Shown: piece after piece, positions 59,813 through 63,444 of the stretch
How the letters are laid out: each line of letters opens with the position of its first letter
How positions within the stretch are numbered: the stretch's first letter is position 1
NCBI RefSeq assembly: GCF_007666205.1
Contig: NZ_VDOR01000001.1
Span: 372,001-436,000, forward strand
DNA length: 64,000 bases
Origin: Kocuria palustris
GTDB taxonomy: Bacteria; Actinomycetota; Actinomycetes; Actinomycetales; Micrococcaceae
Reading direction: 5' to 3'
The notes under the pieces: model-generated
Seen by the model: the letters and a program-made list of their open reading frames with translations, nothing else
The model's database searches: none
What the model was told of the DNA's origin: nothing
Made by a program: the position numbers and the translations under genes

Positions 59813-59929
59813 GCTGCCGAGCGCAGGGGGCACTGGGGCGCGGCGTCGTCGTTCCTGCGGAGGATCCCCGCAGGATCGTCCCCGGAGAGGAGACCCCGCA
59901 TCGCTCGGGAACCCGCAGACCGGGCCGGA

Positions 59930-61555
59930 TCAGCTCCCGCCGGTCGGAGATCCGCCCGTCGGGGCATCGCAGGCGGCGACGAGCTGCGGCAGCACCCTCC
60001 GGAGCACCTGCTCGTCCGCTCGGGCGAAGCCCACCACGACGCCGTCCTCGCCCCCGTCGGCCTCCTCTCCGGCGGGCGCCCCGGCCCAGTAGGCGCTCCG
60101 CCGCCCCACGAGCAGCCCGGCCTCCCGGCAGCGCCGCGCCACGGCGTCCCCGGGGGCCGCGGTGGTGATCAGGGCGTCGACCCCGCCGTGCATGGGCGCC
60201 AGCCGCGCGTGCGCGCACTCGGCGAAGGCCTCGACCACCCGGTCGCGGCGCCGGGCGTAGACCGAGCGCATCCGCCGCGTGTGCCGGCGCAGATAGCCGG
60301 AGTCGAGCAGGTGGGCGATCGCGGTCTGGGTGAGTGCGGAGACCGGGACGCCGAGCTGGCGGCGCCGCTCGAGCACCTGCCCCAGCAGCGGTTCGGGCAG
60401 CACGAGGTAGCCGGTGGCCAGGGCGGGGCTCAGCAGGGCGGAGAAGGTGCCGAGCAGGGCCACGGACCCTCCCGTGCGGTCGAGCGCGGACAGCGCGGGC
60501 AGCGGGGCGCCGACGTAGCGCAGCTCGGAGTCGAAGTCGTCCTCGATGAGCAGGACGTCGTGGTCCTGCGCCCACTCGAGCAGATCCAGACGTCGCTGCA
60601 GGCCCAGCGAGCCGCCCAGGGGGTACTGGTGGCTGGGGGTGACGATCAGGGCGTCGGGGGCTTCTTCTGCCGCGGGCAGGAGGTCGATGCGCAGGCCGTC
60701 GTCGTCGACCGGACAGGGGACCCGCTCATGGCCCAGTGCCTCCACCGCCGCGCGCAGGGTCGGGTATCCGGGCGATTCGACCCCCACGCGCAGCCGCGCG
60801 CGACCGGTCCGGGCAGCCAGTGCGCCCAGCAGCAGGCTCAGGCCCTCGCGGGCGCCGGCCGTGATCGCGAGCCGATCGGGCTGCGCCGGCAGGGCGCGCA
60901 TCAGGCGCAGATGCTCGGCCGAGGCGCGGCGCAGGGCCTCCTGCCCCGCCGGATCAGGGCGAACGGGCAGCGGCTGGGCGGCGGCATGGCGCCAGGCCGC
61001 CCGCCACGCGGCGCCCTCGAGGCGGCTCGTGTCGGGCTGCCCCGGGCGCAGATCGAGCAGGACCTCCCCGCCGTCCTCGCGCGCTTCGCCCACCTCCTCT
61101 TCCGCGACTGGCCGATTCCGCACCGCTTCTGCCGCGAGGGGCCGCTTCTTCACCGCTTCGTCGTCGAAACGGTGAAGATTCGGCCACTCGGAGGTTATGG
61201 GGTGAGGAATCGGCCGCTCGGCGAGTGGGGGTGCCGACGGCGCGCGGGCCGCACCGGGGTGCGGATCCGCCGTCGGCGGATGGATGCGCGCGAGGTCGGG
61301 GTGGACCACGGTCGGGCGGCCCTGAGCTGCCAGGAGGAACCCCTCCCCGGCGAGCTGATCGAATGCGGCCACGACCGTGCCGCGGGAGATCCCGTGGCGC
61401 ATGGCCAGGAACCGCGAGGAGGGGAGGGGGTCCCCGGGGCGCAGCCGACCGTCGGAGATGCGGGTGCGCAGGGCGTCGGCGATCTGCACGGGCAGGGAGC
61501 GCTCGTCGGCGCGGTCCAGCGGCAGGGAGAGATCGATGCTCGAGCGCGCGGTCAT
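59930..61555 (-). CDS. MocR/PdxR-type GntR regulator lacking the PLP lysine
   Basis: A 541-residue GntR-aminotransferase fusion divergent from pdxS, as PdxR activators are. The winged helix spans about residues 20-85 ([37 protein letters not shown]). An unusually long linker of about 80 residues carries repeated [24 protein letters not shown] units. An aminotransferase-like domain follows. Where the family has GTFSKxLxPxLRxGY, this reads [16 protein letters not shown]373 replaces the Schiff-base Lys. PLP could still bind noncovalently. Confidence 0.87.
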
Positions 61556-61582
61556 GCGCACGATCCTGCCCGCCCGGCATCT

Positions 61583-61629
61583 ACTGGTCCACTCGGAACG
61601 TGCGGAAGTGGATCTTGTGATGGACCAGT
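61583..61629. promoter_or_regulatory. PdxR-type operator between pdxR-like gene and pdxS
   Basis: ACTGGTCCA at 61583-61591 and TGGACCAGT at 61621-61629 are exact inverses. AAGTGGATC lies between them at 61606-61614. From memory, AGTGGWC-type repeats are bound by PdxR of corynebacteria. The last copy lies 22 bp before pdxS. Confidence 0.6.
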
Positions 61630-61651
61630 GGTGGGCGACAGCATGGCGGGC

Positions 61652-62569
61652 ATGACTCAGAGCACCACCGCATCCACTTCCTCCACCGGTTCCCCCCTGG
61701 TCAAGCGCGGCCTGGCCGAGATGCTCAAGGGCGGCGTCATCATGGACGTCGTCACCCCGGAGCAGGCCCGCATCGCCGAGGACGCCGGGGCCGTCGCCGT
61801 CATGGCCCTCGAGCGCGTGCCGGCCGACATCCGCGCCCAGGGCGGCGTGGCCCGCATGTCCGATCCCGACCTGATCGACGGCATCGTGGAGACGGTCTCG
61901 ATCCCGGTCATGGCCAAGGCCCGCATCGGCCACTTCGTGGAGGCCCAGGTCCTGCAAGCGCTGGGCGTGGACTACATCGACGAGTCCGAGGTGCTCAGCC
62001 CCGCCGACTACTCGCACCACATCGACAAGCACGGCTTCACCGTCCCGTTCGTCTGCGGGGCGACCAACCTGGGGGAGGCCCTGCGCCGCCTGGCCGAGGG
62101 CGCGGCGATGATCCGCTCCAAGGGCGAGGCCGGCACGGGCGACGTCTCCGAGGCCACCAAGCACATCCGGACGATCCGACGGCAGATCGCCGAGCTGCAG
62201 GCCGCCTTCCGGAGCAGCCCGGACGAGCTGTTCGTGGCGGCCAAGGAGCTGCAGGCGCCGTACGACATCGTCCGCGAGGTCGCCGAGACCGGGAAGCTGC
62301 CGGTCGTGCTGTTCACCGCCGGCGGCGTCTCCACCCCGGCCGACGCCGCGATGATGATGCAGCTCGGCGCCGACGGCGTCTTCGTGGGGTCCGGCATCTT
62401 CAAGTCCGGCAACCCCGCCGAGCGCGCCGCGGCGATCGTGAAGGCCACCGCCCAGTACGACGACCCCGCCGCGATCGCCGAGGCCTCCCGCGGGCTGGGC
62501 GAGGCCATGGTGGGGCTCAACGTGGCCGATCTGCCGGCTCCGCACCGCCTGGCCGAGCGCGGCTGGTGA
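61652..62569 (+). CDS. pdxS: Pyridoxal 5'-phosphate synthase, PdxS subunit
   Basis: Builds PLP from ribose 5-phosphate, glyceraldehyde 3-phosphate and ammonia. It is a 305-residue TIM-barrel protein with [21 protein letters not shown], the active-site Lys in VMAKARIGH, and [14 protein letters not shown], ending [12 protein letters not shown]. Its stop overlaps the pdxT start by 4 bp. A second ATG lies 9 bp upstream (61643). Confidence 0.96.
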
Positions 62570-63444
62570 GTCCGGCCCGCATCGGCGTCCTGGCCCTGCA
62601 GGGCGGGGTCGCGGAGCACGTCCGGATGATCGAGGGCCTGGGCGCCGCGGCCGTGCCGGTGCGCTCGACCGCTGCCCTGGAGCAGCCGCTCGATGCGATC
62701 GTGCTGCCCGGCGGCGAGTCCTCGACGATGGACCGCCTGCTGCGAAGGCTCGGGATGCGGGACCGTCTGGCGCGGCTGCTGGGGGACGGGCTGCCCGTGC
62801 TCGGAACGTGCGCCGGGCTGATCATGCTGGCCCGCGAGGTCGTGGATCCCGCCCCCGAGCAGACCGGCCTGTCCGTGCTGGACATCCGGGTGCGCCGCAA
62901 TGCCTTCGGCCGGCAGGTGGATTCGACGGCCGAGACGGTACACACCGCGCTCGGGCCGGTGGCCGGGGCCTTCATCCGCGCTCCCGAGGTCCTCGAGGCG
63001 GGGGAGGGGGTCGAGGTGCTGGCCCGCCGCGGGACCGCCCCGGACGGCGACGGCCCGGTGGTCGCCGTCGGGACGCCCACGGCGCTGGGCCTGTCCTTCC
63101 ACCCGGAGCTCACCGGCGACGACGCCTTCCACCGGGAGCTGCTGCGCCGGCTGGCATGGGGCGGACACGACGGGAGGGCCGAGCCGTCCGGCTCGGCCCT
63201 CCCGTCGTCCTGGGCTTCGGGGAGCCGGCCTCAGGCGGCGGGCAGGTCCGGGAACTCCGCGATGACGTCGGCGTTGCGCAGCTTCCCGTGCGAGGTGCTC
63301 AGCCCGTGCTCGAGCTCCCGGGAGTCCGCGCAGGCCTTCTTCCAGCCGTCGTCGGCCACCCGCAGCACGTACGGCAGCGTGGCATTGGTCAGGGCCGCCG
63401 TGGAGGTCGCCGGCACGGCGCCGGGCATGTTGGCGACGCAGTAG
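62566..63444 (+). CDS. pdxT: PdxT glutaminase, reading frame without a stop at the usual place
   Basis: Supplies ammonia to PdxS. The first 200 or so residues form a complete class-I glutaminase: [24 protein letters not shown], nucleophile Cys in [10 protein letters not shown], and the His/Glu pair in LSFHPEL. Family proteins end near here. This frame instead runs on through a terminator hairpin and overlaps the convergent alanine dehydrogenase gene, stopping only at 63444. The tail (after about 63,195) is probably not natural protein. GTG start, coupled to pdxS. Confidence 0.82.
63167..63208. terminator. Perfect 19-bp terminator hairpin at the pdxT/ald junction
   Basis: Arms 63167-63185 and 63190-63208 pair perfectly around GTCC. 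The hairpin lies inside the extended pdxT frame and just beyond the ald stop. Confidence 0.85.

Follow-up and report, generated by a model that had tools for sequence, protein, structure and literature searches.

The stretch of DNA analysed here, referred to as the window, comprises 64,000 nucleotides of a Kocuria palustris contig (NZ_VDOR01000001.1, positions 372,001 to 436,000) and carries a pdxR-like gene next to pdxS. The following features were assigned at this locus.

59930..61555, minus strand: pdxR-like MocR regulator gene, 541 amino acids (NCBIfam NF052282, Pfam GntR and Aminotran_1_2, AlphaFold2 model)
61304..61486, minus strand: winged helix-turn-helix, residues 24–84 (PF00392)
61064..61303, minus strand: interdomain linker, residues 85–164, with pLDDT below 50 at residues 102–159 (AlphaFold2 model)
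59963..61063, minus strand: aminotransferase-like domain, residues 165–531, free of Lys (sequence, AlphaFold2 model, structure match)
61556..61651, no strand assigned: putative pdxR-pdxS intergenic operator region (sequence, spacing analysis)
61622..61627, minus strand: predicted operator half-site TGGTCC (pattern search)
61586..61591, minus strand: predicted operator half-site TGGACC, 36 bp from TGGTCC (pattern search)
61652..62569, plus strand: pdxS, PLP synthase subunit (Pfam SOR_SNZ, 347.6 bits)
62566..63444, plus strand: pdxT ORF, SNO glutamine amidotransferase, 292 residues (Pfam SNO, 147.9 bits, match at residues 8–187)

An earlier note on this DNA had proposed that the gene encodes a PdxR-like regulator, and profile searches agree: the reading frame of 541 amino acids is intact, its product scores 409.1 bits against the NCBIfam PdxR equivalog NF052282 (cut-off 320), and PF00392 (GntR) and PF00155 (Aminotran_1_2) are both detected above their Pfam cut-offs. 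An AlphaFold2 model, which was built on an alignment of 16 sequences and reached a pLDDT of 79, matched GabR (5x03) with a Z score of 39.2 and Bacillus clausii PdxR (7pq9) with a Z score of 39.0, over 354 residues. Judged by this model, the window protein folds as a MocR protein.

The ligand pocket of the aminotransferase-like domain was examined at the following codons.

60848..60850, minus strand: Arg236 in the phosphate-loop segment TAGAREG (Arg in 20/20 aligned proteins lacking the Schiff-base Lys)
60539..60541, minus strand: Asp339, matched by motif to the GabR Asp279 column (Asp in 58/58 aligned proteins)
60437..60439, minus strand: Ala373 at the position of the Schiff-base Lys (alignments with GabR and PdxR)
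60416..60418, minus strand: Ala380 at the position of the phosphate-binding Arg, GabR Arg319 (alignments with GabR and PdxR)

In alignments with GabR and B. clausii PdxR, Ala373 occupies the column of the Lys in the GTFSK-type motif, exactly as the earlier note had suggested, and the window protein thus lacks the conserved Schiff-base Lys by which PLP-aldimine MocR regulators are recognized. The further suggestion that the Arg of the phosphate segment had changed to Thr proved to be off by one residue: the column of the Arg in the LRISY segment of GabR holds Ala380, and Thr381 is its neighbor. A GabR Arg319-type Arg is therefore absent as well, a trait that is weakly defining because this Arg is also missing in 33 of the 38 Lys-bearing proteins of our alignment. 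The third pocket residue considered, the Asp that in GabR (Asp279) contacts the pyridine nitrogen of PLP, is present as Asp339. A different Lys might in principle form the aldimine, as the earlier note had allowed. However, the only lysines of the window protein are residues 136 and 137, both of which lie in the repeat-derived linker, while the aminotransferase domain has none, which rules out a substitute in this protein. The window protein is consequently a PdxR by descent, neighbors and profile, and not a PLP-aldimine regulator by the lysine test.

Orthologues from close relatives were compared, as the earlier note had advised. The Schiff-base Lys is absent from 6 of the 23 full-length PdxRs encoded next to pdxS in Kocuria, two of which have Ala and four Thr at this position. 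It is kept in the other 17, which sit on other branches of the tree described below. In G014, G017 and G022, a second MocR copy was left out of the count. Lys is also seen in the PdxRs of G002 (broken frame, incomplete genome) and G011 (cut at a contig end), which were excluded from the tree and the pocket statistics together with a second, 113-residue piece from G084. Beyond Kocuria, pdxS is present in 128 of 148 other sampled genomes of the order. The regions upstream of pdxS were read in 73 of these 128 genomes, about one per genus, with some genera covered more deeply owing to earlier matches. A MocR gene divergent from pdxS within 400 bp was found in 28 of the 73; 13 of these MocRs have no Lys (Thr in 9, Ser in 3, Ala in 1) and 15 retain it. 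As a single deeply sampled genus (g16) accounts for nine of these 13, and g13, g21, g29 and g50 for one each, 13/28 is no estimate of frequency. Lysine-less orthologues in Kocuria and in other families rule out a point loss restricted to a single strain.

For comparison of all these proteins, 58 aminotransferase domains were aligned, including six from MocRs not encoded within 400 bp of pdxS (G034, G042, G043, G045, G056 and G122). Twenty of the 58 lack the Lys and carry Thr (13), Ala (3), Ser (3) or Gln (1) instead; the Gln protein of G122, whose gene lies 2.3 kb from pdxS, belongs to these 20 and stands outside the 28 adjacent genes. In a class-level search, in which 53 of 148 genomes gave a match, Lys was kept at 17/17 new loci, these being the best loci. 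Lysine-less MocR-like proteins of another kind were encountered at five loci of other orders (L074–L077 and L079). Those of L074–L077, from Rhizocola, Spongiactinospora and Lentzea, share absence of the Schiff-base Lys with the window protein but differ from it in an altered Asp motif, and pdxS was not found in the loci examined; possibly they are regulators that left PLP altogether.

A tree was calculated from the 58 domains after removal of the Lys and Arg columns. It requires three changes between presence and absence of the Lys: one for group I, comprising eight lysine-less proteins, one for group II, comprising 11 proteins from four families (the six Kocuria proteins and those of G096, G064, G092, G106 and G157), and one for the solitary protein of G054. 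Some branches are long, among them the one joining G054 and G038. A common origin of all 20 lysine-less proteins was rejected (AU test, p 0.00123). A single clade of the 19 proteins without G054 was not rejected (p 0.187), and the three changes in the tree are therefore not proven. The topology thus supports at least two independent losses of the Lys, and perhaps three. All 20 lysine-less proteins possess the loop Arg, 18 of them as the only phosphate-type Arg and two together with Arg319, while among the 38 Lys-bearing proteins 24 have the loop Arg only, five have Arg319 only and nine have neither. This distribution would fit an order of events in which the Arg changed first and the Lys was lost later.

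Besides the loop Arg, the equivalent of Asp339 is likewise found in 20/20 lysine-less proteins, and we lean towards reading the two residues as signs of a retained pocket. In the lysine-less set, the pocket columns, hand-chosen from known fold-type-I positions, have a conservation of 0.83 as compared to 0.55 for the rest, a value reached in 0 of 5000 permutations. The corresponding values for the Lys-bearing proteins with loop Arg are 0.88 and 0.66, and conservation of the pocket columns may therefore be structural, being equally favored when the Lys is present. Two observations speak against a working PLP pocket. The residue stacking on the ring is variable among the 20 lysine-less proteins (Tyr 7, Phe 7, His 4, Ser 1, Ile 1). 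Since 14 of the 20 carry one to six lysines elsewhere in the aminotransferase domain, an alternative aldimine Lys is excluded only for the window protein and five others. Ratios of dN/dS ranged from 0.09 to 0.38 in eight lysine-less pairs, in three of which dS exceeded 1.3, and from 0.15 to 0.28 in 11 Lys-bearing pairs. The highest ratio, 0.375 with the linker included, belongs to the window's own pair (genomes G000 and G021). The tested lysine-less pairs are under purifying selection.

Divergence from pdxST with a repeat operator, the arrangement expected of a PdxR gene, was found at the locus in the window. Both elements had been pointed out in the earlier note and are borne out: pdxR and pdxS diverge with 96 bp between them, and the operator repeats correspond to the TGGTCC and TGGACC half-sites, between which a third, middle site was seen by eye. 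In 6/6 Kocuria with a lysine-less PdxR, 36 bp was the best half-site spacing (mean of 11.5/12 matches vs 7.28 in shuffled sequences), and the same spacing was best in 13 Lys-bearing Kocuria (mean 11.54/12 vs 7.50), the count excluding four Kocuria with a gap of approximately 1.3 kb between pdxS and pdxR. Outside Kocuria, a TGGWCC-type pattern was strong in two of the 13 genomes with lysine-less proteins (G054 and G064) and gave 0 to 2 matches in the remaining 11; a TGGC/GCCA-like variant was noticed in lysine-less operators outside Kocuria by eye only. Scanning of positions 59900–62600 with Rfam yielded no match at E 0.1.

Among the 27 Kocuria genomes, the 25 with a pdxR match at E up to 1e-40 are the very ones that have pdxS, and the two genes are divergent in all 24 genomes in which both lie on one examined stretch. 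In G004 and G016, neither pdxS (at E 1e-10) nor PdxR (at E 1e-40) was detected, making B6 auxotrophy or an alternative route of synthesis possible there. The wide gaps mentioned above occur at L104 (G006) and at L090, L091 and L092 (1.33–1.36 kb); in G006 a gene for an AAA-type ATPase (PF13191, L104:2723-3922) is located between pdxS and pdxR. In seven sampled genomes (loci L174, L175, L176, L177, L178, L190 and L199), a Lys-bearing MocR of a different type, with an RSVSKF-like motif, is divergent from pdxS, which seems to have had unrelated MocR neighbors.

The linker between the two domains harbors an element of a different nature.

61105..61220, no strand assigned: in-frame array of a dispersed repeat, residues 112–151 (repeat search, RNA fold); two minus-strand 20-bp units (61105, 61135), a 16-bp centre, and two plus-strand units (61171, 61201)

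The earlier note had described a repeated, RP-rich linker of about 80 residues. The interdomain stretch does measure about 80 residues (85–164), but only residues 112–151 form the repeated RP portion, which corresponds to four copies of a 20-bp unit from a dispersed DNA repeat, arranged as two pairs inverted around the 16-bp centre. Allowing up to three mismatches, four units are present in the window where 0.07 are expected, the pattern having been written after inspection of the sequence. When no more than two mismatches were allowed, 72 units were counted in the window's genome, G000, and 22 in G021, and the reversed control matched in neither genome; the remaining 25 Kocuria genomes have at most one unit each. 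Specificity was poor with a looser pattern (118 matches vs 91 for its reversed control). The pdxR gene of G021 itself contains one unit, in the linker, and entry of the repeat probably predates the split of G000 and G021. By a crude codon-usage model, 18/18 other arrays, i.e. those of two or more units on 13 stretches chosen among the matches listed for the looser pattern, are intergenic (11 between convergent, four between codirectional and two between divergent genes, one at a contig end). This model wrongly placed a plus-strand segment over pdxR, and the intragenic status of the array in the window is based on the ORF, the Pfam domains and the positions of the array. The arrays have a period of 30 bp and a GTTTC/GAAAC centre, further examples in G000 being L121:1622-1767 and L128:1635-1750. 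On the array strand, the RNA of positions 61085–61235 folds far more stably than shuffled sequences (z -7.5), and the array might affect the pdxR transcript.

REP/BIME and Rickettsia palindromic elements are dispersed palindromic units, and the Kocuria array, which sits inside a coding frame, resembles them in this respect. It differs in its 30-bp period around the GTTTC/GAAAC centre and in that a Y1 transposase (PF01797) was found in 0/27 Kocuria genomes (positive controls matched in 5/14), by which an origin from a REPIN/RAYT system was dismissed. A literature search on the Kocuria repeats returned nothing relevant. The array is best read as an intergenic palindromic repeat that entered a tolerant linker in frame.

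Which role could a PdxR without its lysine fulfill? With a probability of about 0.4, we favor the reading that the window protein is a regulator of pdxST that senses a B6 phosphate non-covalently. In its PdxR lineage, the role of the classical phosphate Arg would have passed to the phosphate-loop Arg, and loss of the aldimine-forming Lys would have followed. The lysine-less PdxR would still bind the pdxR-pdxS operator. Its old pocket would still accept a B6 phosphate, whether PLP, the aldimine of PLP with an amino acid, PNP or PMP, and would hold it non-covalently through contacts with Asp339 and Arg236. The ligand-free form would activate pdxST, as in known PdxRs; according to PMC5320631, apo-PdxR activates pdxST in the species studied and PLP is the anti-activator.

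The activating nature of the apo form would also suit a protein that cannot hold PLP at all and stays in this state, leaving pdxST constitutively expressed and feedback lost or exerted elsewhere. Absence of both the Lys and the classical phosphate Arg from the window protein speaks for such a locked regulator, and so does EnuR K302H, which is unable to retain PLP and behaves as a constitutive repressor (PMC8739950). However, with the K314A exchange in MpaR no activity of the target promoter could be detected, and the promoter was not locked on (PMC10790758), and a dead pocket would need neither Asp339 nor the loop Arg, which all 20 lysine-less proteins have kept. Because these two residues are retained, non-covalent sensing is preferred over an always-on regulator, which we consider unlikely. 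It is improbable that the pocket was re-purposed for another phosphorylated ligand, e.g. a sugar phosphate substrate of PdxS, bound via the loop Arg: presence of this Arg in place of the classical one and the variable stacking residue would be compatible with such a change, but a sugar phosphate has no need for the pyridine-nitrogen Asp, which is invariant in the alignment. Finally, a functionless, decaying gene or a recent loss in one strain, to which the top dN/dS of the G000-G021 pair and invasion of the linker by a repeat might point, is very improbable given the intact frame, the occurrence of lysine-less orthologues beyond this strain (five more Kocuria genomes as well as other families), the conserved operator geometry and dN/dS values that are all well below 1.

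Compared with PdxR of B. clausii, Corynebacterium glutamicum and Listeria, which belongs to the MocR subfamily of GntR regulators, the protein proposed here to sense B6 phosphates non-covalently shares domain order, fold, divergent pdxS and repeat operator, but lacks the Schiff-base Lys and the phosphate Arg, has the phosphate-loop Arg and is free of Lys throughout the aminotransferase domain. It has the same fold as GabR of Bacillus subtilis and keeps the Asp279 column, but the columns of Lys312 and Arg319 are Ala, and the neighbor of its gene is pdxS. The aldimine Lys is replaced as in the laboratory mutants EnuR K302H and MpaR K314A; the latter were produced by single engineered exchanges and have disrupted control, whereas the window protein belongs to a natural lineage with further changes in the pocket. 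The Lys is described as conserved across the MocR groups (PMC6677901) and in all MocR-like regulators (PMC2018728). Within the reach of our literature search, beyond which many relevant papers lie, no report of a natural lysine-less PdxR was found.

Tentatively, we propose that a natural and repeatedly evolved class of PdxRs monitors the B6 pool with no covalent aldimine being formed, replacement of the phosphate Arg by the loop Arg having made the Lys dispensable. Such regulators may sense B6 phosphates generally (PLP, PNP, PMP, PLP-amino-acid aldimines) and not free PLP alone. The natural replacements of the Lys by Thr, Ala, Ser or Gln provide material for testing the role of this residue, and they caution against annotating such proteins as PLP-dependent. 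A lysine-less PdxR may detect its signal by different means or no longer detect it. If the members of this lineage beside the PLP-synthesis genes are real regulators, the aldimine would be unneeded for regulation there.
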